From: Oceanospirillales bacterium
Lineage (GTDB): Bacteria > Pseudomonadota > Gammaproteobacteria > Xanthomonadales > SZUA-38
Assembly (NCBI GenBank): GCA_003233095.1
Contig: QIKT01000163.1
Coordinates: forward strand, 1 to 33,865
Length of the DNA stretch: 33,865 nt
Direction: 5' to 3'
How positions within the stretch are numbered: position 1 is the first letter of the stretch; each line of letters begins with the position of its first letter. The notes under the pieces are model-generated. The model was not told the DNA's origin, ran no database searches, and saw only the letters and a program-made list of their open reading frames with translations. The translations under genes and the position numbers were made by a program. Shown here piece after piece: positions 8,174 to 33,865 of the stretch.

Positions 8174-8265
8174 AGGAACACGTTCTGAACAGTGATGATT
8201 ATGGTAGCGAGCTTACAGGCCAGACGCCGTACATGCCTGGCAGCCAACGCTGCGGAACAGCAGGA

Positions 8266-10281: not shown

Positions 10282-10660
10282 GTGTCGCGATTCAACAGCA
10301 AGTAATCGCCTTATAGCATACCAGCTCTGTCTCATCCAGACAGTGTCTGTGATCTCGTCTCAGACGACAATAGTGCTCGTCTGTCGAGCACAGCGATTCA
10401 AGTCGCCGCCTGTCCCTGCACGCGTCCAGATCAACCCAGACCGCCAAGGCGTTTGAAAGTGAAACAGGTGTCGAAATGACAATGCAGGAAGAATGATCCG
10501 TCAAGAACTGCCGTTCAACGCTCATTGATGGTCTGAGTGTCACCGCTGAAAGGGGTTTGGTGCCAGTAAGGTCGGCTGGCCATCAAGGAAGTGGCGATGC
10601 GGAACAACAGTGATCAGGCCTGTAAGAAGCGCCATATTTCAGTACCGATAGCACTCAGCT
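10282..10660. other. Intergenic region between the CadC-like gene and yidC
   Basis: I see no convincing gene here; the open frames present have no recognisable protein character. It should contain the promoter of the CadC-like gene (minus strand). No clear -35/-10 pair stands out. Confidence 0.4.
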
Positions 10661-10696
10661 CCATCCCGGACCCATGGCTTCATTGGTCCGGGATGG
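10661..10696 (-). terminator. 12-bp perfect stem-loop just past yidC
   Basis: CCATCCCGGACC and GGTCCGGGATGG pair over 12 bp with a 12-nt loop. The hairpin begins 4 nt after the yidC stop codon on the minus strand. There is no T-run after it, so it may stop transcription poorly or instead protect the 3' end of the rpmH-rnpA-yidC mRNA. Confidence 0.6.
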
Positions 10697-10700
10697 GTCA

Positions 10701-12419
10701 TTACGGAAGGGCGTCGATCCGCTTGGTGATCACCCACTGCTGAGCCAGCGAAATCATCACGTTAACGGCCCAATACAGCACCAGACCCGACTGGAAGAAC
10801 AGGAACAGCAGGGTGAACGCTACCGGCATGAACATCATGATCTTCTGCTGCATCGGATCCATGCCCGGCGACGGCGACAGGCGCATGGTCAGAATCATCC
10901 CCGCACCGTAAATCAACGGCAGAATGAAGAAGGGGTCGGGAGCAGTCAGGTCCTGGATCCACAACATCCATGGCGCCTGGCGCAGCTCGACACTCTCGAT
11001 CAACACCCAGTACAAGGCAATGAAGACCGGAATCTGGACCAGCATCGGCAAACAGCCGCCGAAAGGATTGGCCTTCTCGGTCTTGTACAGCTCCATCATC
11101 TTCATGTTGAATGTTTGCTTGTCATCGCTGTAACGCTCTTTCAGCGCGGCAATTCGAGGACCCAGCTTGCGCAGTTTGGCGGTGGTCTTGTACTGCTTTT
11201 CGGTCAGCTTGAAGAACAGGCCTTTGATCAAAATGGTGAGGATCACGATCGCCCAACCCCAGTTGCCGATCAAGCCGTGGATGAAATCCAGGATCCAGAA
11301 CAACACGGCAGACAGCGGCGTGAAAATGCCGTAATCCACAGTCAGGTCAAAACCATCGCGGATATTGTTGATCACATCCTGCAGCTTGGGACCGAGAAAC
11401 ATGTGTTGTTCGATCGTCTGGCTATCGCCGGCAGCAATAGCAATGGTCGGCATGACGTTTTCGACCCGATACAGCGTTCCACCACTTCGAGGGATGGCCC
11501 TGGCACTGTAATCGGCTTGAACACCGGCTTCGGGTAACCACGCTGTAATGAAGTAGTGTTGTACCATAGCCATCCAGCCATAATCACTGTTGCGCTTCTT
11601 GTCCCCTTCGCGCAGTTCTTCGTAGTCGAATTTCTCGTATTTGTCTTCCTCGGTATACAGCGCCGCTCCATTGAAGCTGAAACGCTCCGGGTTGGTAAAG
11701 GCGTTCTTGTCTTCGAGGTTGGGTTCACGTCGCTCCAGGCGGTGGAAGGCGGCTCCCTCCCAGGTACTGCTGCTGTTATTGCGAATGGTCTGATCAAAGT
11801 CGATCTCATAACTGCCACGTGTGAATCGATACGTCTTGGTCACTTCAATGCCATCATCACCGCGCCAGGTCATCGGTACGATCAACTCGTCCTGCCCTTC
11901 TTTGAGGGTATAGGTGGATTGCGCCGCCGAGAATGTCGCGCCAGGGGCCACACTCTGATGAGAGGTACTGACCAGACCGTGGGTCGCGACAAAATAACTC
12001 TGAACCTGATCATCCAGCAGCACATATTTGTCTTCAGGTATCATCCGATCGATCGGATAAGCCAGTAACTCCGCATGCACCAGACTGGCACCTTGTGTAC
12101 TCAGGCGAATTCGATAGACATCGGTCTCAACCGTGATTTGCTCGGCTTGTGATCCTGACTGAGTGCTGCTGGACGTGTCCGTGCGGGTCGGATTGATTTG
12201 CGGCAGGTCATTCTCATCGTTGGCCGAAACAGCCTGAGCTATCGTATTGACTGTTGGCAAATCGTCTTCCGCGTCAGTGATCAGACCTGGAGCCTGTTCG
12301 GAGACTGATGATGCATCGACGGGTGTCGGCTTGGGACCATAATCCTTCTGCCATGCCTGCCAGAGCATAAAGCTGACAAAAACAAGACCAATGAACAGAA
12401 TCGGACGCATGTTAGACAT
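10701..12419 (-). CDS. yidC: Membrane protein insertase YidC
   Basis: The protein has 572 residues and is the Gram-negative type. An N-terminal anchor (PILFIGLVFVSFMLWQAW) is followed by a large periplasmic beta domain (about residues 60-330) and the conserved 60KD_IMP core. The core has FWILDFIHGLIGNWGWAIVILT, KLGPRIAALKERYSDDKQ, NPFGGCLPMLVQIPVFIALYW and MPVAFTLLFLFFQSGLVLYW. It inserts and folds inner-membrane proteins alone or with SecYEG. The start at 12419 overlaps rnpA by 8 nt; a second in-frame ATG at 12410 avoids the overlap. The usual yidD gene between rnpA and yidC is missing. Confidence 0.97.
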   Translation of the reverse strand: MSNMRPILFIGLVFVSFMLWQAWQKDYGPKPTPVDASSVSEQAPGLITDAEDDLPTVNTIAQAVSANDENDLPQINPTRTDTSSSTQSGSQAEQITVETDVYRIRLSTQGASLVHAELLAYPIDRMIPEDKYVLLDDQVQSYFVATHGLVSTSHQSVAPGATFSAAQSTYTLKEGQDELIVPMTWRGDDGIEVTKTYRFTRGSYEIDFDQTIRNNSSSTWEGAAFHRLERREPNLEDKNAFTNPERFSFNGAALYTEEDKYEKFDYEELREGDKKRNSDYGWMAMVQHYFITAWLPEAGVQADYSARAIPRSGGTLYRVENVMPTIAIAAGDSQTIEQHMFLGPKLQDVINNIRDGFDLTVDYGIFTPLSAVLFWILDFIHGLIGNWGWAIVILTILIKGLFFKLTEKQYKTTAKLRKLGPRIAALKERYSDDKQTFNMKMMELYKTEKANPFGGCLPMLVQIPVFIALYWVLIESVELRQAPWMLWIQDLTAPDPFFILPLIYGAGMILTMRLSPSPGMDPMQQKIMMFMPVAFTLLFLFFQSGLVLYWAVNVMISLAQQWVITKRIDALP

Positions 12420-12774
12420 GATGGGTGTGCTTCCTGTGGATGCGCTTCCAGTGATGCTCGAGCGATTGAAACAGATCGGAGTTTCTGGCCTGAACAGCGG
12501 CCGGTCGGGTCATGACGACCAGATCGACTATCGGCAGTGTGCTCTCCTGACGTATGCTCTCACGAACCAGGCGTTTGATGCGATTGCGATCGACGGCGCG
12601 ACGAGCCACCCGTTTTGCAATTGCCAAACCCAGGCGTGCCCGCTCGGACTGACCGGTGGTAAAGAGAATAGTGAAGTATAGATCGCTACTGCGTCCCGCG
12701 TTCTTGAACACGTGGTCAAATTCCATCTTCCGCAGCAATCGTGCCTGCCGGGGAAATCCAGCAGGATGCGACAT
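12412..12774 (-). CDS. rnpA: Ribonuclease P protein component
   Basis: The protein has 120 residues. It is the basic protein subunit that binds the RNase P RNA and helps it recognise the 5' leader of pre-tRNA. The family signature is visible as LGLAIAKRVARRAVDRNRIKRLVRESIR (residues about 49-76), with the RNR core. The N-terminus FPRQARLLRKMEFDHVFKN is typical. ATG 12774 lies 2 nt after the rpmH stop, and the last codons overlap the yidC start, so the three genes are translationally packed. Confidence 0.96.
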   Translation of the reverse strand: MSHPAGFPRQARLLRKMEFDHVFKNAGRSSDLYFTILFTTGQSERARLGLAIAKRVARRAVDRNRIKRLVRESIRQESTLPIVDLVVMTRPAAVQARNSDLFQSLEHHWKRIHRKHTHHV

Positions 12775-12776
12775 GA

Positions 12777-12911
12777 TTATACGGCCAAGCGCTTACGACC
12801 CTTGGCACGGCGTGCATTGATGATGGCACGTCCACTGCGGGTTTTCATGCGAGCACGGAAACCGTGTGTACGGGCGCGTTTGAGATTGCTCGGTTGAAAT
12901 GTTCTTTTCAT
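12777..12911 (-). CDS. rpmH: 50S ribosomal protein L34
   Basis: The protein has 44 residues, [20 protein letters not shown] to GRKRLAV, the standard length and sequence of L34. It is a very basic component of the large ribosomal subunit. It opens the rpmH-rnpA-yidC cluster, diverges from dnaA, and has a strong sigma70-type promoter about 105 nt upstream. Confidence 0.97.
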
Positions 12912-13017
12912 GACAAGGGCTCTTTCTTGTGTGACGACCCGGGAGCCAGATCATCTATTCTGTCTGATAGTTTTACTGACCACGCACGGCAAGTCCGGCG
13001 CGGACAAAAGGAGCGAA

Positions 13018-13046
13018 ATGATACGTGCTGGCCCTCGCGCTGTCAA
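13018..13046 (-). promoter_or_regulatory. Sigma70-type promoter of the rpmH-rnpA-yidC operon
   Basis: Minus strand: TTGACA (13041-13046), 17-nt spacer, TATCAT (13018-13023). The -35 is a perfect consensus and the spacing is optimal. Transcription would start near 13010, giving a leader of about 100 nt before rpmH. Confidence 0.75.
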
Positions 13047-13126
13047 CTATCAGGGCGGTCTGAACCCATTCAGTCCCGGTTGGCATCACTGTGGCCTGGA
13101 CTGCTGGTTTTTATCGCTCGATTGCC

Positions 13127-13135
13127 TGTGGATAA
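13127..13135 (-). promoter_or_regulatory. Consensus DnaA box upstream of dnaA
   Basis: TGTGGATAA is the exact reverse complement of the TTATCCACA DnaA box. It stands alone in the rpmH-dnaA spacer, about 180 nt before the dnaA start, where it could mediate DnaA autoregulation. The rest of 12912-13314 holds the rpmH promoter and presumably the dnaA promoter. The dnaA frame happens to stay open through most of it. Confidence 0.65.
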
Positions 13136-13314
13136 CTCGCGATATGCGGGGTAAACTATCCGCTTGTTGTGGTTTGTACCCGATGCTGCTGAACGTCCCT
13201 GGTGACGAGGCTCGGAGCCGCTCGAGCCACTATTCGGTTATTGGTCAACAGCGGGTCTGTCACCCCGGCTGTGACCAACCGCCTGACTCCGTCGACTTTG
13301 AGAAACACAGCATC

Positions 13315-14640
13315 ATGTCTGCAACCATTTGGGAGCGCTGCCTGCAACGCCTTGAGCACGATTTGTCTGCTCAGGATTACAGTATGTGGATTTCTCCTCT
13401 CCAGGCCCGCGCCGATGAGCACAGCGTCCATCTGCTGGCGCCCAACACCTTCGTCCTGGACACGGTGCGTGAGCGCTTTCTCGGTGACATTGAATCGCTA
13501 CTGCGCTCCTATCAGGGTGATGACGTGGTTGTCCGGTTGATTATCGGAAATCACCATGAGTCTTCCGAAGTCCGTCAGCCTGATCCGTCACCTGCCGCCG
13601 TGCAGAGGCCGCGGGTACAGAGCAACCTGGACCGAACCTACCGTTTCGAGAGTTTTGTTCTCGGTAAATCAAACGAAATGGCCCATGCCGCGGCCATGCA
13701 GGTTGCGGAGAATCCGGGCGATTCAGCCTACAACCCACTATTGCTCTACGGCAGCACCGGGCTTGGAAAGACTCATTTGCTGCATGCTGTCGGTCATCGC
13801 ATTCTTGCCGAAAAGCCAGATGCGCTGGTGGTCTACCTGAACTCCGAACAGTTCGTCAACAGCATGATCCAGGCGCTTCGCCACAACCGTATTGATGAAT
13901 TCAAGCGACAGTATCGGTCTGTTGATGCCCTTTTGATTGACGATATCCAATTCTTCGCCGGCAAGGACCGTTCACAGGAAGAGTTCTTTCATACCTTCAA
14001 TTCACTACTGGATTCAAAACAACAGATCATGATGACCTGTGATCGTTACCCCAAGGAGGTCTCTGGCCTGGAACCCCGATTGAGATCACGATTCGGCTGG
14101 GGCTTGAGCATTGCCATCGATCCACCGGACTTCGAAACCCGGGTCGCCATTCTGATGACCAAAGCCGCTGCACAGCGTCATGCTATCTCAGAGGAGGTTG
14201 CCTATTTCCTGGCCAAGAAGATTCCATCGAATGTTCGGGATCTCGAAGGCGCGCTCAACACGCTGATTGCCAATGCGCGATTCAGCGGCAAGGCCATCAC
14301 ACTGGAATTCGCTCATATGACCTTGCGTGACCTGCTCTCGGTCCAGGATCGTCTGATCACCATCGTCAACATTCAGAAAACTGTCTCGGAATACTATAAA
14401 CTTCGGGTGGCAGATATGTTGTCGAAAGGACGAACACGCTCCATTGCCAGACCGCGACAACTGGCCATGGCCATGGCAAAGGAACTGACAGAGCACTCAC
14501 TGCCAGAAATCGGTGATGCCTTCGGTGGCAGAGATCATACGACGGTACTGCACGCCTGTCGCAAGATTGCCGAATTGATGCAGACCGACACAAGGCTGCG
14601 AGAGGACTATGACAAGATTCAGCAGATCCTGACCACATGA
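13315..14640 (+). CDS. dnaA: Chromosomal replication initiator protein DnaA
   Basis: The protein has 441 residues from ATG 13315. The frame is open upstream to 12910, but homologues begin at the [20 protein letters not shown] helix, so the upstream part is not expected to be coding. Domain I is at about residues 1-80. A short variable linker (80-105) follows. Domain III is an AAA+ ATPase with Walker [12 protein letters not shown] and Walker [10 protein letters not shown], plus [11 protein letters not shown] with the arginine finger region. Domain IV has the DNA-binding signature [15 protein letters not shown] near the end. It binds the boxes at 14657-14829 and opens oriC. Domain II is shorter than in E. 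coli. Confidence 0.98.
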
Positions 14641-14900
14641 GCCACCATGTTAGCCCTGTGGACAAGGTCAGTATAAGCGGGTTGATAAGCCTGTGGATAA
14701 GGTGTGGATGGATTGAGGTCGTCTATTTATCCACAGCTTGTACACAGAATCACCCCGGATTTTGGAGACAGTAGTTTCAACGTAAGCACTTGATATTAAA
14801 AGATAATTTTACTTATACAGATATCCACAGAGACTAGTTATTACTACTGTTTATATCTTTAATTAAGAACTAATAACCAACTGCTATTGGAAACCAGCTT
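14641..14900. other. oriC: Putative oriC (DnaA-box cluster and AT-rich unwinding region)
   Basis: DnaA boxes in the dnaA-dnaN spacer: TGTGGACAA 14657-14665 (one mismatch), TGTGGATAA 14692-14700 (perfect), TGTGGATGG 14703-14711 (weak), TTATCCACA 14727-14735 (perfect), TTGTACACA 14738-14746 (weak) and ATATCCACA 14821-14829 (one mismatch). Between and beyond the last boxes (14790-14880) the DNA is very AT-rich. Right after the last box comes a three-base-periodic stretch, TAG TTA TTA CTA CTG, which may be a DnaA-trio unwinding element. No gene fits in this spacer. Confidence 0.85.
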
Positions 14901-16001
14901 ATGAAATTCAGTGTTCAACGAGAGACCATCCTCAAACCCCTGATGCAGGTTGTCGGTGTCGTTGAGCGTCGACAAACGTTGCCTGTTCTCTCCAACCTTC
15001 TGGTCACGGCCAGTGATCAAGGTCTGGAGTTCATTGGCACCGATCTGGAAGTAGAGATGCGTGCCAGGATCGACCAGGTTGTCGATGAAACAGGAGAGGT
15101 CACTATTCCAGCGCGCAAGCTGGTTGATATTTGCAAGGCATTGCCTGACGGTGCAACGGTTGATATCACGGTAACCGATGAGCGCGCGACGATTGTGGGG
15201 GCACGCAGCCGTTTTACACTCTCGACCTTGCCCGCCACAGAGTTTCCAGTTATCGAGGATGTCAACGTAAGCCGCTCGGTTACCGTGCAGGAAAGCGACC
15301 TGAAGCGAATCATCGACAGAACGGCCTTTGCCATGGCTAATCAGGATGTGCGGTATTACCTCAATGGATTGCTGTTGGAATTGCATCCTGAGCGCGTTCG
15401 AGCGGTTGCGACAGACGGGCATCGTCTGGCCATTTGCGACGCCCTGGGTGAAACAGGATCTGAGGGCATCACTCAAATGATCATTCCTCGCAAGGGCATC
15501 GTTGAGTTGCAGCGTTTGCTTGATGACAATGACACCAGCATCCAGATGGAGTTTGGCCCATCACACGTCAGAGTTACGCTGAATGATTGCGTGTTCACAT
15601 CGAAGCTGATTGATGGTCGTTTCCCAGAATATGAATCGGTAGTACCGGTAGGTGCAGACCTCTCACTGACCGGTAACAAGGAAGTGCTTTGCAGAGCCTT
15701 GCAACGTGCAGCTATTCTGTCCAATGAGAAATACCGTGGCGTTCGGTTGGAACTTCAACCTGGCCGCCTGAAAATCATTGCGCATAATCCTGAGCAGGAA
15801 GAGGCTGTTGATGAGGTCGAGGTTGAGACAGAGATCAGCGATCTCGCGGTAGGTTTCAACGTCAACTACCTTCACGATGCACTGAGCTTTCTGGATGCAG
15901 AAACCGTCACCATGGCCTTCAAGGATCCGAATTCAAGCTGCCTGATTTCCGCGCATGATGATGATTCGGCGCGTCACGTGGTGATGCCATTACGTCTCTA
16001 G
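14901..16001 (+). CDS. dnaN: DNA polymerase III beta subunit (sliding clamp)
   Basis: The protein has 366 residues, three clamp domains, standard length. N-terminus MKFSVQRETILKPLMQVVGVVERRQTLPVLSNLL; it ends in VVMPLRL, matching the conserved MPMRL-type tail. It forms the dimeric ring that tethers polymerase III and many repair proteins to DNA. Its stop codon TAG (15999-16001) is part of the CTAG target of the element that begins at 16002, so the element sits exactly against the end of the gene without altering the protein. Confidence 0.98.
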   Translation: MKFSVQRETILKPLMQVVGVVERRQTLPVLSNLLVTASDQGLEFIGTDLEVEMRARIDQVVDETGEVTIPARKLVDICKALPDGATVDITVTDERATIVGARSRFTLSTLPATEFPVIEDVNVSRSVTVQESDLKRIIDRTAFAMANQDVRYYLNGLLLELHPERVRAVATDGHRLAICDALGETGSEGITQMIIPRKGIVELQRLLDDNDTSIQMEFGPSHVRVTLNDCVFTSKLIDGRFPEYESVVPVGADLSLTGNKEVLCRALQRAAILSNEKYRGVRLELQPGRLKIIAHNPEQEEAVDEVEVETEISDLAVGFNVNYLHDALSFLDAETVTMAFKDPNSSCLISAHDDDSARHVVMPLRL

Positions 16002-16160
16002 GAGCCTGTCGGACTTAACATGATCTATTGCGGGAAAGCTGAGTTTGGCCAGATTTCCGGATCTTTTTCGTTACATAGCAGAGCTATTCGCCTCAAAAGA
16101 TCGAAAAATCTGACTCAAATCGACTTTCCATCGCGACGATCGGTCAAGTCCGACAGGATC
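16002..16160. mobile_element. 159-bp MITE-like element between dnaN and recF
   Basis: The terminal inverted repeats GAGCCTGTCGGACTT and (right end, reverse complement) GATCCTGTCGGACTT match at 14 of 15 bases. It is flanked by perfect 4-bp direct repeats CTAG at 15998-16001 and 16161-16164. Its left half is similar to the reverse complement of the units at 84-163 and 3448-3519 (shared GAGTTTGGCCAGAT). It has no significant open frame. It splits the usually tight dnaN-recF junction. Confidence 0.85.
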
Positions 16161-16222
16161 CTAGGTCCTGGCTCGACTTCATTTGCAGCAGGGATCTTAC
16201 TTGTTCCGTTAGAGTCCGCCGC

Positions 16223-17314
16223 GTGATTGTCAATCGCCTTCAGATTGATGGATTGAGAAACCTCAGCAAGGTTGACCTTGCTCTTGATCCGGGTATCAAT
16301 TTCTTCTATGGCCTCAATGGCGCAGGCAAAACGTCTGTACTGGAAGCGGCACATATCCTGGCAACAGGCCGCTCCTTTCGAGTTGGCCAACCGCGCGACA
16401 TGATTCAGTATGGCCAGTCTCGATATCAGATTGTTGCTCATTGTCAGACTGATGCCGAGGATCCAAACTCAACTCTAATCCTTGGCCTTCAGCGCAGTCT
16501 TGACGACTGGACGGCGCGAATCAATGGCGACCCAATCGAGCGAATCAGCGATCTGGCAACCCATCTGGTCGCACTGTCATTCCATCCGTCTTCACATGAG
16601 TTGATCGAAGGGGGTCCGGAAAGACGGCGTCAGTATCTCGATTACACCATGTTCCACGTGGAACATACTTTTCTCACAACGTGGCGCAATTACCGCAAAG
16701 TACTCAAGCATAGAAATGCGTGTATCCGCCAAAAGCTTGGTGATGATTCATTTGATTATTGGGAAGGTGAGCTGGCACGATATGCAGCGCTGTTGACGAA
16801 ACAACGCGAAGCTATCATGCAGCAGTTGCAAGAGGTTTTCTCCAGCTTGTCCGAAATGATTCTCGGTGACAACTTGTCACTAGCCATGCAGTATCAGAGA
16901 GGCTGGAAGCAGGACGCCGATCTTCTTGATGTTCTATTACAGCAACGACGGACGGATAGGCAGATGGGGTATACGCGCTCAGGCCCACACCGTGCGGACA
17001 TCCGATTATCACTGTCTACTGGCAAGGTTGCGCCTCAACTTTCCAGAGGACAGCAAAAAAGCTTGGCGTTGATATTGCTTATGTCTCAGCTTTCGGTGAT
17101 ACAGGCGGAGACGTCGCACCGCCCCTTGATCTTGCTTGATGACTTCCCATCTGAGCTGGACGTCAATAAGCAGGCGGCTTGTCTTGATCGACTCTCCAAG
17201 ACGGGTTGTCAGATTCTGATCACCGGAGTCGATCCTCCAGGTCCTGGACTGAAACAGCACTCCGCAACCGTGTTCCACGTGGAACATGGCCAGATCCATC
17301 ACCAACCCGTCTGA
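16223..17314 (+). CDS. recF: DNA replication and repair protein RecF
   Basis: The protein has 363 residues, SMC/ABC-like ATPase that with RecOR loads RecA at gaps. Walker A is GLNGAGKTS (about residues 30-38), the signature is LSRGQQKSLALILLMSQL, and Walker B is LILLDDFPSELD. The start is GTG 16223, giving MIVNRLQIDGLRNLSKVDL, which aligns with the family start. The gene is displaced 222 nt from dnaN by the mobile element. Two parS palindromes are embedded in the coding sequence, each read as FHVEH: one near residue 145 and one near the C-terminus. Confidence 0.97.
   Translation: MIVNRLQIDGLRNLSKVDLALDPGINFFYGLNGAGKTSVLEAAHILATGRSFRVGQPRDMIQYGQSRYQIVAHCQTDAEDPNSTLILGLQRSLDDWTARINGDPIERISDLATHLVALSFHPSSHELIEGGPERRRQYLDYTMFHVEHTFLTTWRNYRKVLKHRNACIRQKLGDDSFDYWEGELARYAALLTKQREAIMQQLQEVFSSLSEMILGDNLSLAMQYQRGWKQDADLLDVLLQQRRTDRQMGYTRSGPHRADIRLSLSTGKVAPQLSRGQQKSLALILLMSQLSVIQAETSHRPLILLDDFPSELDVNKQAACLDRLSKTGCQILITGVDPPGPGLKQHSATVFHVEHGQIHHQPV
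16650..16665. promoter_or_regulatory. parS: parS site 1 (inside recF)
   Basis: TGTTCCACGTGGAACA, a perfect 16-bp palindrome and a canonical ParB-binding parS sequence. It lies about 1.8 kb from the oriC boxes. Confidence 0.9.
17271..17286. promoter_or_regulatory. parS: parS site 2 (3' end of recF)
   Basis: A second, identical 16-bp TGTTCCACGTGGAACA, 621 bp after the first (centre to centre), 28 nt before the end of recF. Together the two form a ParB loading cluster next to the origin. Confidence 0.9.
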
Positions 17315-17420
17315 TCAGAGCGCCTGTGTGGCGCGCTTCATGCAGAACGCGAGGCTCTAGTGGGGCGAGGTGCATTTACGCCTCACAAGCCTTGTCAGCC
17401 GGGCGTTTTGTCGCGAAAAA

Positions 17421-17432
17421 GGGTATACTGTT
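17421..17432 (+). promoter_or_regulatory. Possible -10 element upstream of gyrB
   Basis: TATACT follows GAAAAAGGG about 25-30 nt before the gyrB ATG in the 143-nt recF-gyrB spacer. No good -35 lies 16-18 nt upstream, so this is a weak call. gyrB promoters are often supercoiling-sensitive, but nothing here proves that. Confidence 0.3.
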
Positions 17433-17445
17433 CAGTCGAATATGA

Positions 17446-19851
<2,406 letters not shown>

Positions 19852-21128: not shown

Positions 21129-22214
21129 TCAACGCGAAGTCAACTTGATTTCGATACGGCGATTGGCGGCAAAGGCGGCATCCGTCTGGGCGCGAATCAG
21201 AGGATGGTAAGGACCAAAACCCGTAGGCGCGAGTCGTTTTGGCTCGATACCCAATTGAATCATGTATTTGACGATGGACAAAGCACGTGCCGTAGACAGC
21301 TCCCAGTTCGAGGGAAAATCAGGCGAAGAGATAGGGCGTTCATCCGTATGACCATCAATACGCAGGACCCAGTCAATGTTTGCTGGAATGTCATCGGAGA
21401 CATCCAGCAGCACACCGACCAGCTTCTGAACCTGGTCACGACCCTGGCTGCCCAATGTGGCCGAGGCTGACTCGAACAGCAACTCTGACTGGAACACGAA
21501 ACGATCCCCTTCAACGCGCAAATTGGGATTATCACCCAGTGCCTGTTTCAGCTGGCCGAAGAAATCTGACCGATACGCGGTCAACTCTTCGACCTTGTCC
21601 GCCAGAGCAAGATTGAGACGCTTGCCCAAATCGGCAATCTCGGCATCTCGAGTCTCCACATCGGTGGTCGTAATATCAAGGGCATTGGAAACCTTGGTCA
21701 ACTGGTCACGCAAACCGCTGAGTTGACGATTGAGTAACAGAACCTGAGCTTGTGCCTCAGTCGACAATTCCGATTGTATCGTCGTTTGCTGTTGGCTTTG
21801 CTCAAGAGAAGAGGCGAGAGCAACCACTTCATCTTGTAGCTCATCGCGAAGATTCATCAACGCGTTAACGTCGGATCTCAAGCCTTCGATTTCATCGATC
21901 CGGGTGTTCAGTGCGGCAATGGACTCGTTGAGCTTCAGTTGTGTCTGATCACGTTCGCGGCTGGTCTCGTCCAGGTATTGACTCAAGGATTCTGAACGGT
22001 CTTCGGCCACCGACAACATCTCGGAAAGTGAGCGGATATCGATTTCCAGCTGGCTCAGCGCGCGGTTCTTGCTGTTGAGGCTGTCATTGAGTACAAATTG
22101 ACCGAGCGTGAACAGCATCAGTACGAATACCATGACCATCAACAGAGCGGCCAGGGCATCAACGAAGCCGGGCCAGATGTTCAGCGGTCGTCGGTGTGAA
22201 GATTCGCCGATCAT
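21129..22214 (-). CDS. MotB-like OmpA-domain protein with long coiled coil (stator B subunit)
   Basis: The protein has 361 residues. A single N-terminal helix has WPGFVDALAALLMVMVFVLMLF, where the aspartate (about residue 18) is placed like the ion-carrying Asp of MotB/ExbD. A coiled coil runs from about 45 to 205 (heptad-rich, many E, L, Q). A C-terminal OmpA/MotB peptidoglycan-binding domain has RIDGHTDERPI, NWELSTARALSIVKYMI, LAPTGFGPYHPL and NRRIEIKL. Its ATG overlaps the stop of the MotA-like gene by 4 nt. No flagellar genes are nearby, so it probably powers another envelope process. Confidence 0.9.
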   Translation of the reverse strand: MIGESSHRRPLNIWPGFVDALAALLMVMVFVLMLFTLGQFVLNDSLNSKNRALSQLEIDIRSLSEMLSVAEDRSESLSQYLDETSRERDQTQLKLNESIAALNTRIDEIEGLRSDVNALMNLRDELQDEVVALASSLEQSQQQTTIQSELSTEAQAQVLLLNRQLSGLRDQLTKVSNALDITTTDVETRDAEIADLGKRLNLALADKVEELTAYRSDFFGQLKQALGDNPNLRVEGDRFVFQSELLFESASATLGSQGRDQVQKLVGVLLDVSDDIPANIDWVLRIDGHTDERPISSPDFPSNWELSTARALSIVKYMIQLGIEPKRLAPTGFGPYHPLIRAQTDAAFAANRRIEIKLTSR

Positions 22215-23206
22215 GCAGAAGGTCTTTGCTGCAGTGCCGCCGCAATAGTGCGATTGAGCAGGCGTAATTCCTGGCGCAGGTCGTCACTGACGTTCTGTTG
22301 CTGAATCTGTATGCCCAGATCAGCCAGGTGACGATTGAGTTGACTTAATTGCTGGTGCAAGGTGTTGTCTGACGCGGCCTTTCCGCTGAGTGTGCGCTGC
22401 ATTCGATCGAGCCCGTCGGCCGTTTGTTCCAGCAAGGCCTGAACATAGGCCGGAACCTGAGCGTCGCCATCTCCGGGCAGAGCACCGCTGGAGAGACGAG
22501 TCACGCTCGACAACCATTCTTCTAGTTCATTGAAGAATCGGTTCGAGGCACGACCGGCGAGAAGATCCAGGAAGCCGAGTATCAACGAGCCGGCCAAGCC
22601 GAACAGACTGGACGAGAAGGCAATGGCCATGCCTGACAGCGGACCTTGCAGTCCGTCCCGCAGTGAGCTGAAGACATCGGCACCGGCCCGATCATCGACA
22701 GTCAGGCCTTGAATGACGCTGCTGGCGTCACCGATGGTCTTGAGCAGGCCCCAGAACGTTCCCAACAGGCCGAGAAATATCAGCAGACCTGTCAGATATC
22801 GTGCCAGGTCGCGTGATTCTTCCAGCCTCAGACGAATGCTATCGAGCAGTGAGCGCAGCGACATGGCCGACAGGCTGAATTCGCCTTGCCCCGTGCGTGA
22901 GAGCATGCGCGACATGGGCGCCAGTAATTTGGGTGTCTGTCTGATTCGTTTCTCGGCATCCTGCCCGCCGCGGCGAAACGCCTCGATCCAGCTCAGCTCG
23001 GGAAACAGATTGATAACGTGTCGGAAACTAATGAACACACCGATCAGAAGCACGCCAATGATCACGCCATTGAATGCCGGATTGGCAGCGAAAGCTTCGT
23101 ACACGGCCTGATATCTGATAGCGACCAACAAGCTGACAATGATGACAAAGATCGCCATCCACATCAGGTTCTTGTCAGGACGGGTAAAGATCTGCTTGTG
23201 TTTCAA
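22211..23206 (-). CDS. MotA/TolQ/ExbB-like proton channel subunit (stator A)
   Basis: The protein has 331 residues from TTG 23206, supported by AGGGGA 7 nt upstream. Two helices near residues 12-32 and 42-62 are followed by a cytosolic loop and the MotA_ExbB core with LTGLLIFLGLLGTFWGLLKTI and LSGMAIAFSSSLFGLAGSLILGFLDLLA. A soluble, coiled C-terminal tail of about 100 residues follows. The partner is the adjacent MotB-like protein. Alternative: an ExbB-type energiser, but the OmpA domain of the partner favours MotAB-like. Confidence 0.9.
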   Translation of the reverse strand: MKHKQIFTRPDKNLMWMAIFVIIVSLLVAIRYQAVYEAFAANPAFNGVIIGVLLIGVFISFRHVINLFPELSWIEAFRRGGQDAEKRIRQTPKLLAPMSRMLSRTGQGEFSLSAMSLRSLLDSIRLRLEESRDLARYLTGLLIFLGLLGTFWGLLKTIGDASSVIQGLTVDDRAGADVFSSLRDGLQGPLSGMAIAFSSSLFGLAGSLILGFLDLLAGRASNRFFNELEEWLSSVTRLSSGALPGDGDAQVPAYVQALLEQTADGLDRMQRTLSGKAASDNTLHQQLSQLNRHLADLGIQIQQQNVSDDLRQELRLLNRTIAAALQQRPSA

Positions 23207-26695: not shown

Positions 26696-27931
26696 ATGAT
26701 CCTGAATCCTGACTGGGTTGACTCACTGAGCATGCTGCAACAGCAATTTGCCAGCGCGCGGCCGTTTCGCCATGTGGAGATCGATCAGTTCTTCACCGCC
26801 GCCTTTTGCCAGAAGATGCTGGATGCCTTTCCCGGGTTCGAGGATGAATATGCGCGCAATGAAACGGGTCAGGTTGGTCGCAAGGCGGTGCGTTCGGACG
26901 TGCGTAATCTGGGGCAGGTCTATCAGCAGCTGGACGATGAGCTTCGCAGTGAGATGTTCCTCAAGGCCATCGAGACCGTCACCGGCATCAGCGGACTGAA
27001 ATATGACCCTGCGTATGTGGGTGGTGGCACTCATGACAACCGCAGCGGCCAGGGGCTGTCACCGCACGTCGACTTCAATTTTCACCCGCTCGATGGTCGT
27101 CATCGTCGATTGAACCTGATTGTCTATCTGAATGACGAATGGGACGCTGACTGGGGCGGTTGTCTGGAGTTGCATGAGAACCCCTGGAGCCTGCATCAGA
27201 ACCAGATCACCCAGGTTTTGCCCAGCCTGAATCATGCAATCCTGTTCGAGACCAATGAACACTCCTGGCACGGTTTCCAGACGATCAGGCAGCCGACCGA
27301 TGGGCCGACGCTGGCGCGTCGGTCGTTTGCTCTGTATCTCTACACCGACACCCGTCCAGAAGACGAAACGGCCATTGAGCACAGCACGGTCTACGTGCCA
27401 TTGCATTTGCCCAAATCACTGCAATCGGATCACGCAGATCCGCTTGTGCGTCAGGAAGTGACCGGTATTCTGGAAAATGGTCTGGGAATGTTGAAGTTCC
27501 TGTACGACCGCGAAAAGCAGTTTGCCGCAAGGATTGATCAGTTGAAGGGCTTGCAGAGATTACCGCTCATCGGGCAGGCGCTACAGGTCGGGCGACAGGA
27601 GGGCTTTGATGAGGACGGATGGATGGGGCCAGTGCTGCGCTTCGAGGTCAAGCCCGTCGAAAGAATCAACCGTGTGTCACTGAAACTGACCATCCCGTCG
27701 CAGGTTGGCGAGGGTCAGCAGTTGACATTGACGGTTGGTAACAAGTCATTTGAACGACGCTGTGAGCCGAATGAGTCCTTCGAATGGACCATCCAGACAG
27801 CGCTCAAGAAAGACAAGATATGTCCCATCAGCCTGAGTGCAGAACGACAATTCATTCCCGCCGAACATGGCCTGGGAGAAGACCGCCGGATGCTGGCGGT
27901 GCTGATCCGACAGATCGACCTGACTGCCTGA
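26696..27931 (+). CDS. 2OG-Fe(II) oxygenase (prolyl 4-hydroxylase-like) with C-terminal beta domain
   Basis: The protein has 411 residues. The catalytic half (about 20-235) has the jelly-roll motifs GLSPHVDFNFHP (HxD iron ligands near residue 122), WGGCLELHE, HSWHGF (distal His) and RRSFALYLY (Arg for 2-oxoglutarate). Such enzymes hydroxylate proteins or sugars using 2OG and O2. The C-terminal part (about 310-411) looks like a beta sandwich and ends FIPAEHGLGEDRRMLAVLIRQIDL. The downstream sulfatase ATG overlaps its stop (TGATG), so the two are translated together. Substrate unknown. Confidence 0.85.
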   Translation: MILNPDWVDSLSMLQQQFASARPFRHVEIDQFFTAAFCQKMLDAFPGFEDEYARNETGQVGRKAVRSDVRNLGQVYQQLDDELRSEMFLKAIETVTGISGLKYDPAYVGGGTHDNRSGQGLSPHVDFNFHPLDGRHRRLNLIVYLNDEWDADWGGCLELHENPWSLHQNQITQVLPSLNHAILFETNEHSWHGFQTIRQPTDGPTLARRSFALYLYTDTRPEDETAIEHSTVYVPLHLPKSLQSDHADPLVRQEVTGILENGLGMLKFLYDREKQFAARIDQLKGLQRLPLIGQALQVGRQEGFDEDGWMGPVLRFEVKPVERINRVSLKLTIPSQVGEGQQLTLTVGNKSFERRCEPNESFEWTIQTALKKDKICPISLSAERQFIPAEHGLGEDRRMLAVLIRQIDLTA

Positions 27932-30624
27932 TGGCTGCGCCTGCCTCAGTGGACGTCCGTGCTTTGCCGCTGTTTGTGTTGGCAAGTCTGGCCATCACCC
28001 TGCCGATTTACAACGTGCTCAAATCCAACCCGGCCTTTATTGCTGCGCATCAATTTGACCGGCTGGACATGACCCTGCTGGTCTTCGTGCTGGCACTGCT
28101 GCTGCCTGGACTGGCGGTCTTGATCTGGCTGCTGGTGCAGCGCCTGTCTGCGCGCGCCGGGCGAGGGGTTTTCAACGCGCAGATCGTCCTCTGGGTTGCG
28201 CTGTTGGTGTTGAACGAGATATCGGCCTGGTCGATGCACCCGGTCACTGTCGTCCTTGTGTCGCTGTTTCTGGGTTTGGTTGTCGTGATTCTCTACTGGC
28301 GATGGTCCATGCTGTCGGTGTTCCTCAAGTGGTACGCTTGGGTATTACCGGTGATGATGGTGTTGTTCGTGTCGAATGACTCCGTGCATCCATTTTTCAA
28401 GCCAACGGACGCGCCCGTTACGGCAGTGCGAATCGACCAGGACGCCGCACCGCCGATTATCATGGTCATCTTCGATGAGCTGCCACTCATCAGCCTGGTC
28501 ACAGATGAGCCGGTTGAAGGAGGAACGGATGAGGTCGGGTTTGCGATCAATTTAAAGCGCTTTCCGAATCTGGCGGCCCTGGCAGAGACGGCCAACTGGT
28601 ATCCCTGGCACAGCACCAATGCCGATTCAACCTCGGTCGCCATTCCTGCACTTTTGAGTGGACAACTGCCCGAGGGCAAGGCAACCATTCCCACCTGGCA
28701 GGATGTACCCGTCAATCTGTATACCTTGTTGGCCGAGGACTATCGGATGAACGTGTTTGAAAATGGCACACATCTGTGCCCAACGACCCTGTGCGAGTCT
28801 CGGTCGGTGTTGTCCACTCGAAAGGGCCGCTGGACTCTGATGCTGGATGATATCTGGATCAGTCTTCAACACCTGTGGGTGCCAGCCAAGTGGCGCTCTG
28901 CGCTGATCTCGATTGACAATCGATGGCTGGGTTTCAGAGATCCAACCGGTGTCGCCGAAGTCACCTCCGGCGCGTTCGAAAAGGCCAACTACAACTTTTC
29001 CGACCGGGGTGTGGTGTTTCGTCGCTTCATCGAACAAGCCCGCATGCTGTGGCAAGCGGATGATCCGAAGCCGAGTCTGAGTGTGATTCATTCGATGTTG
29101 CCACATGCACCCTACAAACGCTTGCCGGACGGTATGTTTTACAGCCTCAAAGAGCCCAACCGCGTCTTTGGAACACTCAGTGACAAGACCCAGATGTCCG
29201 TCATTCACCAAATGTACAATGATAATCAGGCGATGCTGCTGGCGCGCCAGCAACACCTGCTGCAGACTGGGTTTGCCGATGCGCTGCTAGGTGAACTGAT
29301 CGCCGAATTACGCGCAGAGGGGATATTTGACCGCAGTTTGATCGTCGTCACAGCGGATCATGGGGCCGCCTTCAAGCCGGGTCTTTCACGGCGACAAATC
29401 CAGGACGGTAACCAGGCAGAGATTGCCAGCACCTTGCTGTTGATCAAACGGCCCGGACAGCAGCGCGGAGAAGTCTCCCAACTGAGCAGCCAGAGCGTGG
29501 ATATTCTGCCGAGCATTCTGGAGCTGTCGGGCTACCAATCCCCTCGCGAGATGAGTGGTCAATCACTGCTGGGTGACTTCAAGCAACGCGCCGAAGTGAA
29601 CATCCAGGCCAGTGGCAGCCAACCGACCCACTTTCCCTTCAGCGGCTTCAAGGCAACCGTGCGTCAGACCCTGGCTGAGTATAGCGCTCGGGATGGAAAT
29701 GACTCCTTCGACGCCCTGTATGGCCTCAACCGCCTGGAGGCGCCTGTCGAGTGGGCCGGACAATCAATTGATGTCATTTCAAGCGAGGAAGGAGTTAGCG
29801 AAAGCAGACTTCGGATCGCTCAACTGGATTCCTTGCGCCGCTGGGCACCGGCGAATGAGTTTCGGTTGTCGATGATCTATGGCGAATGGGACGATGCCTC
29901 CTCGGCCGAGGCTCCCGAAGGCGTGGTTGTGGCCATCAATGACAGAGTCGCATGCCTATCTCGCTGGTTTGACATTCAGGGCTTCGAAAGCCAATTTCGC
30001 TGTGTCTTCGACTATCAACTGATGCAGGCCGGGGACAATGATATCCAGGTCTATCCATTGGTCCGTCAGGCCCAGAGTTGGTCCCGCGGCCCAGCAATGA
30101 CACTGGAGCATGTCGATGACGTGCACGGTGTCCAGGCACATCCGTTTGTAGTCATGTGGCAACCACGTTTGCAGCCCCAGACCGTGTCGGAAGATCAACG
30201 CTCTACCGATTCGGGTTTGGTGGATCATTTTATGGAGGGGTGGTCGACCGGGAAAAGCTCAATCCGCTGGACGGTTCAAGCAACGGCGACACTGATTCAT
30301 GCTTCTCGGAACCCTCTCCCTGTCGGCAAGTATCAACTGGTGCTTCGTGCCAAGGCACTGACGCATCCGACGATGCTTGCTGAGCAGCGTATTCGCGTCC
30401 GGATTGACGATCAGGCCTGGGTAGAGATGATCTGGTCCGAGACAGAATTCACCGAGTATCCGGTCGCATTCACAATCAGCGAACCTCAGGATCAACTGAT
30501 GATTCAGTTCGAACTGCCTGATGCTGCATCGCCGAAGGAAATGGACATAGGCAACGACGTTCGACCTCTCGGAGTGGCGCTATACAGTTGGCGAATCGAT
30601 CCTGCGGGTGATGAGGGCGGATGA
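27931..30624 (+). CDS. Membrane-anchored sulfatase-like hydrolase (alkaline phosphatase superfamily)
   Basis: The protein has 897 residues from ATG 27931; an in-frame extension upstream is only the overlap with the oxygenase gene in another frame. About five helices fill residues 10-146. The sulfatase domain then has IIMVIFDELPL (metal Asp-Glu), NADSTSVAIPALLSG (nucleophile Ser/Thr region), VIHSMLPHAPYK and VVTADHGAAF (metal Asp-His). A C-terminal beta region from about 740 ends IGNDVRPLGVALYSWRID. The nucleophile context lacks the CxPSR sulfatase motif, so it may be a phosphoethanolamine or lipid transferase rather than a sulfatase. It probably acts outside the membrane on lipid or glycan. 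Confidence 0.85.
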   Translation: MAAPASVDVRALPLFVLASLAITLPIYNVLKSNPAFIAAHQFDRLDMTLLVFVLALLLPGLAVLIWLLVQRLSARAGRGVFNAQIVLWVALLVLNEISAWSMHPVTVVLVSLFLGLVVVILYWRWSMLSVFLKWYAWVLPVMMVLFVSNDSVHPFFKPTDAPVTAVRIDQDAAPPIIMVIFDELPLISLVTDEPVEGGTDEVGFAINLKRFPNLAALAETANWYPWHSTNADSTSVAIPALLSGQLPEGKATIPTWQDVPVNLYTLLAEDYRMNVFENGTHLCPTTLCESRSVLSTRKGRWTLMLDDIWISLQHLWVPAKWRSALISIDNRWLGFRDPTGVAEVTSGAFEKANYNFSDRGVVFRRFIEQARMLWQADDPKPSLSVIHSMLPHAPYKRLPDGMFYSLKEPNRVFGTLSDKTQMSVIHQMYNDNQAMLLARQQHLLQTGFADALLGELIAELRAEGIFDRSLIVVTADHGAAFKPGLSRRQIQDGNQAEIASTLLLIKRPGQQRGEVSQLSSQSVDILPSILELSGYQSPREMSGQSLLGDFKQRAEVNIQASGSQPTHFPFSGFKATVRQTLAEYSARDGNDSFDALYGLNRLEAPVEWAGQSIDVISSEEGVSESRLRIAQLDSLRRWAPANEFRLSMIYGEWDDASSAEAPEGVVVAINDRVACLSRWFDIQGFESQFRCVFDYQLMQAGDNDIQVYPLVRQAQSWSRGPAMTLEHVDDVHGVQAHPFVVMWQPRLQPQTVSEDQRSTDSGLVDHFMEGWSTGKSSIRWTVQATATLIHASRNPLPVGKYQLVLRAKALTHPTMLAEQRIRVRIDDQAWVEMIWSETEFTEYPVAFTISEPQDQLMIQFELPDAASPKEMDIGNDVRPLGVALYSWRIDPAGDEGG

Positions 30625-31130
30625 GCGGAACACGGCTGCGGGGCCTGGATCCTGTGATGGATTCGAATATCCGTGTGTTGATTCTGGGTTCGATGCCAGG
30701 CGTTCAATCGTTGAACGCCGTCGAGTACTACGCCCATCCGCGCAATGCCTTGTGGTGGATCCTGTCCGAATGGCTGGAGTTTGATCTTCAGCAACCTTAC
30801 CTCGAGCGTTGTCAGGGTATTCTGGATGCCGGTCTTGGCTTGTGGGACGTGGTCGGTGAGTGTGTCCGCCCGGGCAGTCTCGACAGCGCCATCAGGCTCG
30901 ACTCTGTGGTCGTCAATGACATCCTCGGGCTGCTTGTGCGTTACCAGCAGATTGAACGGATTCTGTTCAATGGGGGCAAGGCGGCCAGCCTGTTCAACAA
31001 GCACGTCGCCGCATCGTTGAGGGACCTGGGTCGAGACGTGGCGAGCATCGTTTTGCCCTCGACCTCACCCGCCTATGCAGCGATGAGCCAAGAGGAAAAG
31101 AAAGCCCGCTGGATCAGGGCATTGAGCTGA
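30621..31130 (+). CDS. DNA-deoxyinosine glycosylase (UDG superfamily)
   Basis: The protein has 169 residues. It carries the start VLILGSMPGVQSLNAVEYYAHPRNALWW, the family motif for the hypoxanthine-DNA glycosylase branch, and the late motif LPSTSPAYAAMSQEEK. It removes deaminated adenine (hypoxanthine), and perhaps other damaged bases, from DNA. It overlaps the sulfatase stop by ATGA, so it is in the same operon although the functions look unrelated. Confidence 0.9.
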   Translation: MSGTRLRGLDPVMDSNIRVLILGSMPGVQSLNAVEYYAHPRNALWWILSEWLEFDLQQPYLERCQGILDAGLGLWDVVGECVRPGSLDSAIRLDSVVVNDILGLLVRYQQIERILFNGGKAASLFNKHVAASLRDLGRDVASIVLPSTSPAYAAMSQEEKKARWIRALS

Positions 31131-31136
31131 TCCGAA

Positions 31137-32348
31137 TCAGGCAGAAATTAATCGGCGCTGTTCGGTGTCGATGCACAAACCACCCGGGAAATTGCACACC
31201 AGATCATCCTGATAGAGCGCCTTGAGGTGATCGAGAATTTGCTGCAGGCCGCGCGCACGCAGTGGATAGTAGTGTTCCAGTCGGTTGACGGTGCCGTCTT
31301 CTTCGCGCCACTGCACGGTATAGGCAATCGTCCCAAGCTCTACGGAGGACTGTTCGGTCAGATCCAACTGGCCAACGGCTGGGCCGTCAATGGGGCGTTC
31401 GCAGACGAAGAAACCTTCCAGCTCAGGAAGCACGCTGCTCCAGTCATCGGCCGAGTCCAGACGCTCGATCAGATCGGCGGTCAGCTGCAACAGTCGAAAC
31501 GGAATATGATGCGCCTTCATCGCGGTGACGACCTGACGTTGAATGCGAATATAGCGCGCATAGCCACTGATCAGTTCATCCGTATCACAGTCGTTGATAT
31601 TGGCCCAGTCATCGAAACCCAGATAGGTCAGGTTGACGCCATCCGGGGTGCTTTGAAAGCGATTGCCTACCGGTGATTCGATCATGACCGAATCACCGGT
31701 CAACAGCTGGGCATCGAGTAGTGACCACAGTTCAGGCAAGCCAATGTGCGTCAGCTGCATGCTGAGCATGGCGCACAGGTCATGCAGAGTCATGTATCTG
31801 GCATGCAGTGGATTGATGCCAAACAGCTCGATCAGGGCAATCGCTGTCTCGGGTCGCACCTGACCCTGGTTGATCAGAATTTCCTCGGCTCGACAGGACA
31901 GCTCGGCCAGGGCCTCGGGGTCTTCGCCGATCAGCAGGATCGGAATCAGCAGCATGGGACCGGCCGAGGTGTTCGGCTCGGGGTTCAGGGCGGTTTCCGG
32001 GAATTGACCACCCGAGGCGCCCAGCGCCATCAAGCCGGGCTGGAAGGGGCGGCTGGTATCGTCGCCGGTCTGAGCCTTGTGATACATCGTCTTGAGCGCG
32101 TTGAAGACCGCATAGTCGGGCGTCAGCAACTGGGGTTGCTCGTAGATTGCGCCGGCAACCAAACAACCAAAATCACTGATGTCTCCGAGCAGACTGGTCA
32201 GGTCGGCGGCGACCAGGTCGGCCAGTTGGCTGGTCTTCGACTTGTCAATCGGTGCGGGCAAGGTCAGTCCGGAAGCGTGTTGGGCCAGGTCGGCTTCAAT
32301 GGCCATAGTCAGGCAGACACAATGGGTGGGCAACGGGCTGGAGCTCAT
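31137..32348 (-). CDS. Conserved protein of unknown function
   Basis: The protein has 403 residues from ATG 32348, with AAGGA 8 nt upstream. It is soluble, with no signal peptide and no membrane helix. Acidic and leucine-rich N-terminal half (LADLVAADLTSLLGDISDFG), a central stretch LGFDDWANINDCDTDELISGYARYIRIQRQVV, and a C-terminal part ending LVCNFPGGLCIDTEQRRLISA. I do not recognise the family. It converges on the glycosylase gene, with only 6 nt between the two stops. Confidence 0.75.
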   Translation of the reverse strand: MSSSPLPTHCVCLTMAIEADLAQHASGLTLPAPIDKSKTSQLADLVAADLTSLLGDISDFGCLVAGAIYEQPQLLTPDYAVFNALKTMYHKAQTGDDTSRPFQPGLMALGASGGQFPETALNPEPNTSAGPMLLIPILLIGEDPEALAELSCRAEEILINQGQVRPETAIALIELFGINPLHARYMTLHDLCAMLSMQLTHIGLPELWSLLDAQLLTGDSVMIESPVGNRFQSTPDGVNLTYLGFDDWANINDCDTDELISGYARYIRIQRQVVTAMKAHHIPFRLLQLTADLIERLDSADDWSSVLPELEGFFVCERPIDGPAVGQLDLTEQSSVELGTIAYTVQWREEDGTVNRLEHYYPLRARGLQQILDHLKALYQDDLVCNFPGGLCIDTEQRRLISA

Positions 32349-32449: not shown

Positions 32450-33724
32450 ATGATCATGAATCATGATGCTTCCTATCACTTGGTCAGGGCAGTGCACACT
32501 GTGACACGAGCTGTCAGCCCAAAGTGCAAATCGAATTCCTGGCTGACTCGAGGGTACGGTCTACATCTGTTTGTTCTGGCCAGTGCAGCGATCGTGTTTC
32601 CCTGCTATGTGCTGCTTCAGACCCAGCCCGGTTTCTCACGGCGCATCAACTCGACCGTCTTGACCTGATTGACCTGATCCTTCTGTTTGTCATCTTGGCC
32701 CTCCTGATACCCGCCGTTCCGGTTGCAGTCTGGGCGCAACGACCTTCCGGCTTTGTTTGCGGCTGTTGTGCCTGATGCTGCTGCTGACCAGGTCACAGTC
32801 GTTTCTGCCCGGAAACTCAAGGCGAGTGACGACCGAGCAGAGTCTTTCCGAAATAGCCCGGACTCCCTTTGTTTATCAAGCGACCCGGACAACAGCAAGG
32901 TCTGAGACGGTTGATCCTCACAGTCAATCGGTTGACCTGCCCGACCGCTATGGCCGACGGGTTTTTCCGAGGTCTATGGAGCCAATGACCCTTATTCGCT
33001 GATCGACAGGTCGATCAACGAATTTCCAGGGTTGGATCCGACTGAACCCTCGGAGCGGGCGGAGATTGCCCAACTCGATTGGATGCAGCACTGGCAACCG
33101 GCAAAGGGCTTTACGCTGGGCGCCCTCTACGCAGACCTGACCGACCAGCATTTTGTGATCAGTCGCGATGGTGTGATTCTGTGTGATGCGCAGAGCTTCC
33201 GAATCGAGGGTTTCCAGAAGCACGTCCGCTGCCTGTTTGACAGTCCATCATTTGACGATTCGGTAGATCATCAGATCGGCTTGTATCGGTATTGGCCCGA
33301 ACAACCGGCTCTTGAAGCGTTGCCAATTGAACATCGAGAGCGTGTGACGGAGCTGAGATCCGCCCAAGCCGATCATCGCTGGAACACCAACCTTGTGCCC
33401 CTCCATCTGGATCAGACGGTAACCTTCGGGGCAACACCTGTCAGGGCTGCTTTCCCCAAGGCTCCTCAGTGGTTCAGGGCCCAATCATGTGGAACGATCA
33501 GCCCCGGGCTGTTATTGGCCCTGCAGCTCGATTCGCCCTTGCCGGCAGGGGACTATCAGGTTCTCGTCCGTATCAAGCCATATCTGGCTGATGGCAGGTT
33601 GCTCCATCAAAGACTGGATGAGCGTATTGACCATGAGACGTTTGAAACCCACACGATCAATGTCCGCTTGACCGAGCCCAAGCCAAAAGGTTCGCTTGGA
33701 GGTCTCCTTCCCGGGCGCTGTTAA
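32450..33724 (+). pseudogene. Decayed paralogue of the membrane sulfatase gene
   Basis: The start frame (ATG 32450, GAGG upstream) reads LHLFVLASAAIVFPCYVLLQTQPGF, matching LPLFVLASLAITLPIYNVLKSNPAF of the gene at 27931. After a frameshift near 32635 it reads LTAHQLDRLDLIDLILLFVILALLIP, matching AHQFDRLDMTLLVFVLALLLPG. The catalytic middle is gone apart from a trace near 32865-32930 (FIKRPGQQ-like DNA). From about 32961 one frame reads VYGANDPYSLIDRS, then AEIAQLDWMQHWQPAKGFTLGALY, matching the parent's C-terminal beta region to its LTEP point, where homology ends. A tandem duplication with internal deletion explains this. Confidence 0.8.
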
Positions 33725-33865
33725 ACCTTCATCGTTGGGCATCAGTGCAGACGCGCGGCATTTGGCTATTGCCTGGTTGTCGTTGACGGTCATCGAGGCC
33801 AGGGCCCAATGATGATCTGAAGTGATGCGGTCATTCCATAGGGTGGTGCCGACCTGTACCATATT
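33725..33865. other. Window end, no gene assigned
   Basis: About 140 nt with no recognisable gene. A minus-strand frame entering from 33862 begins MVQVGTTLWNDRITSDHHW and may continue antisense to the pseudogene; it lacks support. Confidence 0.25.

Follow-up and report, generated by a model that had tools for sequence, protein, structure and literature searches.

Two adjacent genes on the forward strand of the window (the whole 33,865-nucleotide stretch of DNA analyzed here) encode different enzymes with similar C-terminal ends, which raises the question of whether these enzymes share an accessory module and, if so, whether this module directs both to one surface substrate, as the first-pass annotation of the locus suggested. 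The first gene (26696..27931) encodes a 411 aa 2OG-Fe(II) oxygenase (PF13640, E = 9.5e-14), and the second one (27931..30624) an 897 aa inner-membrane enzyme of the alkaline phosphatase (AP) superfamily that matches the Pfam family 'Sulfatase' (PF00884, E = 9.2e-14). The reported overlap of the two genes is a single base, TGATG, with the stop codon at 27929-27931 and the ATG at 27931-27933; a longer, upstream open frame for the membrane enzyme begins at 27784 and adds 49 residues inside the oxygenase gene, an extension that is probably not translated. Upstream of the pair lie the dnaA-gyrB genes and a divergent ABC transporter, and downstream a DNA glycosylase, with no glycan cluster around the two genes in the window.

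The start of this downstream gene, which encodes a DNA-deoxyinosine glycosylase (30621..31130, forward strand; TIGR04274, 150 bits against a cut-off of 80), overlaps the stop codon of the membrane enzyme (ATGA). The glycosylase, an odd operon partner for a membrane enzyme, is probably co-transcribed with it and functionally unrelated. The locus adjoins an origin region with the gene order mnmE, yidC, rnpA, dnaA, dnaN, recF, gyrB (6809-19851). The reverse strand of the window encodes a pair of MotA/ZorA-like and OmpA/MotB/ZorB-like proteins (21129-23206), with partial PADLOC matches to ZorA/ZorB, and a 403 aa protein (31137-32348) with no match in Pfam, NCBIfam, or PADLOC.

The oxygenase ends in ...FIPAEHGLGEDRRMLAVLIRQIDLTA and the membrane enzyme in ...ASPKEMDIGNDVRPLGVALYSWRIDPAGDEGG. 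The pattern G-x-D-x-R-x-L-x-V is indeed exact in both tails, but the acidic residue that had been placed before it is not common to the two (L and I occupy this position). Direct BLAST of one tail against the other was not significant (17 residues, E = 1.5-6), so that the motif alone is little proof. The fetched loci contain 2055 distinct ORF tails, of which 10 carry the strict motif (with V, I, or L as the last residue) within the last 40 residues; the looser pattern D-x-R-x-L occurs in 51 ORFs, of which the clear matches carry the domain, and many of the others resemble chance shadow frames. The wider signature common to both domains, GW...P...G-x-D-x-R-x-L, spans a domain of ~105-125 residues. 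In the oxygenase, this domain, supported by alignment of 11 members, AF2, and Foldseek, covers residues ~302-409 (27599..27922, forward strand), with DGW at 307-309 and G394-x-D396-x-R398-x-L400; in the membrane enzyme, it covers residues ~766-893 (30226..30609, forward strand), with EGW at 769-771 and G874-x-D876-x-R878-x-L880.

For profile analysis, we aligned 11 oxygenase domains (the window domain, two from the related-locus search, and eight from the genome search), in which D, W, P, D, R, and L are invariant, and, separately, the membrane-enzyme domain with four relatives. With hhalign, the two alignments matched over 94 columns up to and including the motif (E = 2.1e-8, probability 95.3); the lowest E among 60 column shuffles was 0.038, and the reversed profile gave 0.13. 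When each profile was searched against 61 genomes, both matched identical places in three of these (G060, G019, and G030). Among 4905 ORFs, a profile without oxygenase-type rows retrieved the window oxygenase domain (E = 1.9e-4) and an oxygenase-type profile retrieved the membrane-enzyme domain (E = 0.005), both in register, these reciprocal profiles containing bridge sequences originally picked by the first profiles. Judged by these sequence comparisons, the two C-terminal domains are homologous and distantly related.

Against its own subfamily, each of the two domains has a much higher score than against the other (133 vs 18 bits for the oxygenase domain and ~125 vs 13 bits for the membrane-enzyme domain). 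We thus reject a recent duplication that placed copies of one module in both genes; by sequence, the two modules belong to different subfamilies. The membrane-enzyme domain matches PF22895 (DUF7024) over residues 773-891 with a borderline score (25.9 bits, gathering cut-off 24.4; six-frame genome search without a match). The oxygenase C-terminus has no match to this family up to E = 1 and is related to it via profile comparison only; the oxygenase copy represents a subfamily that is not recognized by Pfam.

Structure prediction with AF2, using the window sequences together with related-locus sequences as input rows, gave a confident model of the oxygenase domain (pLDDT 92.1, pTM 0.83) and a low-confidence one, from two rows, of the membrane-enzyme domain (pLDDT 68, pTM 0.64); by eye, the order of the strands is the same in both models. 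Foldseek searches of the PDB placed CBM35/CBM36 among the best matches of both models (E from 2.6e-4 to 1e-3, TM ~0.5), with the provisos that this fold is common and the membrane-enzyme model is weak; a HMMER search of the PDB sequences with the domain profiles gave no credible match. The models suggest a CBM-like jelly-roll class for both domains, and no more than the class. The two C-terminal regions are predicted to be beta-rich, as first described, and their predicted folds do not look unrelated, with CBM35/CBM36 among the best matches of both.

The proposed search for the module in other glycan-modifying proteins was productive. E. coli OpgB carries DUF7024 (E = 1.3e-65), with a weak match to the two small domain profiles, in the first third only. 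Other carriers include membrane proteins of the AP superfamily (one of which, L099, has the module twice), one multi-GT4 and one Methyltransf_24 protein (L100), a GT2 protein (L122), a GT4 protein (L124), and two sulfotransferase-like proteins (L144, whose total of 24.6 bits just exceeds the Pfam cut-off of 22, and L138, which falls short of its cut-off). Further carriers are three exported proteins of uncertain class (L095, L096, and L098), and in two relatives of the oxygenase, a methyltransferase domain follows the module (L117, tested against Pfam, and L118, by sequence). Across the superfamily alignment, G and W near the start and D, R, and L near the end are nearly invariant. No relatives of the oxygenase domain were found on plasmids. 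The oxygenase profile lacks a stretch of sufficient conservation for a search of viral contigs, and the other two scans of such contigs gave no relatives. The module is an old, promiscuous accessory part of mostly glycan-active enzymes. No paper naming DUF7024 was found in the literature searched; the link of this domain, which has no assigned function, to oxygenases, glycosyltransferases, methyltransferases, and sulfotransferase-like proteins predicts glycan binding, including for the OpgB domain.

The oxygenase contains the active-site pattern HxD...H...R (H124, D126, H192, and R208/R209), which together with the Pfam match places it in the 2OG-Fe(II) class, has no transmembrane or signal segment for export, and is predicted to be cytoplasmic. 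In the tree of 35 oxygenase catalytic domains, 10 of the 11 domain-bearing ones fall into one group (an unstarred node with support 86/74) and the remaining one is an outlier on a long branch; the module label changes twice compared to an average of 9.5 changes for shuffled labels. Hence, the module probably reached the oxygenase early and stayed, and the domain-bearing oxygenases probably form an old lineage of single or near-single origin. The neighbors of relatives of the oxygenase include glycosyltransferase, PIG-L, sulfotransferase, and PMT genes, with glycan contexts around the oxygenase in two loci (L013 and L001).

The label of sulfatase given to the membrane enzyme is not supported by its sequence. 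The segment STSVAIPALLSG has Thr234 at the nucleophile position and lacks the Cys/Ser of C/S-x-P-x-R, so that a formylglycine sulfatase is rejected; Thr234 aligns with Thr in the relatives, five residues before P-x-x-L-S-G, and D182 and D476-H477 were also located. This pattern is of the OpgB/EptA/LtaS type and matches the Thr-nucleophile group of EptA, LtaS, and YejM (PMC7576196). With five transmembrane helices predicted by a hydropathy scan and a predicted periplasmic catalytic domain, we infer from family and motif that the enzyme is phosphotransferase-like, its activity and donor being putative. More generally, annotation as a sulfatase should be avoided for membrane proteins that combine Pfam 'Sulfatase' and DUF7024 and have threonine as the nucleophile. 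Outside its own genome, the full-length enzyme is without a match at E = 1e-20 among 369 genomes of the class, and its nearest full-length homolog, from an order relative (G019), is 29% identical. The G019 homolog (L110) sits between genes resembling, by eye, ATP synthase and ParB genes.

A decayed paralog of the membrane enzyme lies further downstream (32450..33800, forward strand; BLASTP 25%, E = 1e-14). It consists of a remnant of the transmembrane region (~32540-32775) and a C-terminal part (33032-33724), the catalytic domain being missing; the tail PSSLGISADARHLAIAW, with D-x-R-x-L, is in another frame and reaches 33800. The tail domain thus occurs here a third time, in broken form (33518-33800; profile matches at 33518-33652 and 33678-33785). 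This second copy of the membrane AP enzyme is a pseudogene, in which frameshifts occur and the catalytic domain has been lost internally; given that the genome is in 232 contigs, assembly error may be the source of the broken paralog.

The shared accessory module thus stands, as a homologous beta-sandwich domain, but the claim that it directs both enzymes to one surface substrate does not follow: the module is widespread and the two copies come from different subfamilies. Because it occurs on many glycan enzymes, the module is a general accessory part and no proof that the window pair act together. The view of the two enzymes as an uncharacterized modification pair is likewise not supported. 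None of the 10 module-bearing relatives of the oxygenase has an AP enzyme of this kind beside it in the fetched flanks (several kb, shorter at contig ends), and a conserved oxygenase-AP gene pair is rejected from these neighborhoods; the oxygenase lineage is old and without this neighbor. Moreover, given the lack of transmembrane and signal segments in the oxygenase and the periplasmic AP domain, the two catalytic domains are predicted to be separated by the inner membrane. Adjacency in this genome appears to be local and, we infer, no sign of a common substrate.

Taken jointly, the data make it fairly probable that both proteins are glycan-modifying enzymes, each with a C-terminal CBM-like beta-sandwich of one superfamily, and that these modules were acquired separately by the two genes, long ago. 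The lack of a glycan cluster around the genes and the generic nature of beta-sandwich matches speak against this reading. With Fe(II) and 2-oxoglutarate, the oxygenase would act in the cytoplasm and hydroxylate a sugar or a glycan intermediate. Via its threonine, the membrane enzyme would transfer a phospho-substituent from a lipid donor to a periplasmic glycan, by analogy with phosphoglycerol transfer by OpgB. Given the fold and the precedent of CBMs on other glycan assembly enzymes, the domain might bind or position the acceptor glycan. In ORF12 of C. youngae, a GT136 enzyme (GT-C), the C-terminal CBM binds the enzyme's own unmodified O-polysaccharide and was not required for activity in the conditions used (PMC11127046); a Klebsiella chain terminator also carries a predicted C-terminal CBM (PMC11231755). 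The conserved GW and D-x-R-x-L at opposite ends of the domain could form a fold-stabilizing clasp, with the specificity surface varying.

A closer relationship, in which the operon and the module reflect a real pathway, is unlikely, if worth considering: both modules would bind the same glycan, which the oxygenase would hydroxylate at the stage of a lipid-linked intermediate and the membrane enzyme would substitute later, in the periplasm. This scenario draws on the TGATG junction and on a cluster in genome G029, where ~5 kb separate an oxygenase of the same family from an AP enzyme with the module, and PMT_2, GT2, and sulfotransferase genes stand in the same row, so that involvement in the same glycan pathway, though not at the same site, is possible. 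The G029 oxygenase, however, has no module, no such AP enzyme lies near any of the ten oxygenase relatives with a module, the membrane enzyme has no close full-length homolog in the 369 class genomes, and the modules come from different subfamilies. A common pathway for the window enzymes, as such, is plausible. Slightly less likely still, the C-terminal domain would be a structural or dimerization unit rather than a glycan-binding one, with only the clasp residues conserved; the near-invariant positions are at the two ends, with no conserved binding face evident from sequence, but nearly all identifiable carriers are glycan-active and CBMs are the nearest folds. We consider it improbable that DUF7024 and the oxygenase-borne domain form one large, unrecognized CBM superfamily whose members keep enzymes of the cytoplasm and the periplasm tethered to one and the same glycan, growing or lipid-linked; if so, the window pair would perform a two-step decoration, an oxygenase-made hydroxyl followed by phospho-substitution. 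A convergent or chance similarity of generic beta-sandwich ends, with which the non-significant pairwise BLAST of the tails would agree, is very hard to reconcile with the profile match, its clean controls, and the sites found by both profiles in the same three genomes.

The favored reading, two glycan-modifying enzymes with separately acquired modules, can be set against known systems. The oxygenase shares the catalytic fold family and HxD...H...R with 2OG-Fe(II) oxygenases (PF13640), the nearest PDB structure being a prolyl 4-hydroxylase-like protein (9ei6), and differs from these by its C-terminal CBM-like domain. A jelly-roll fold like that of CBM35/CBM36 is predicted for both window domains, at only ~10% identity and the TM given above. 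With EptA, LtaS, and YejM, the membrane enzyme shares five N-terminal transmembrane helices, the periplasmic AP domain, the Thr before P-x-x-L-S-G, and DHG, and differs by extra C-terminal beta domains. OpgB (phosphoglycerol transferase I) adds phosphoglycerol to periplasmic glucans (PMC10514313). E. coli OpgB matches the equivalog NF003000, whereas the window enzyme has no match up to E = 1 to either OpgB equivalog (NF003000 and NF009027), and the oxygenase copy of the domain, unlike that of OpgB, is not seen by Pfam. As in the window enzyme, the DUF7024 domain of OpgB is C-terminal to a membrane-anchored AP domain, and the OpgB tail SPRKLGIGM falls at the position of the motif.
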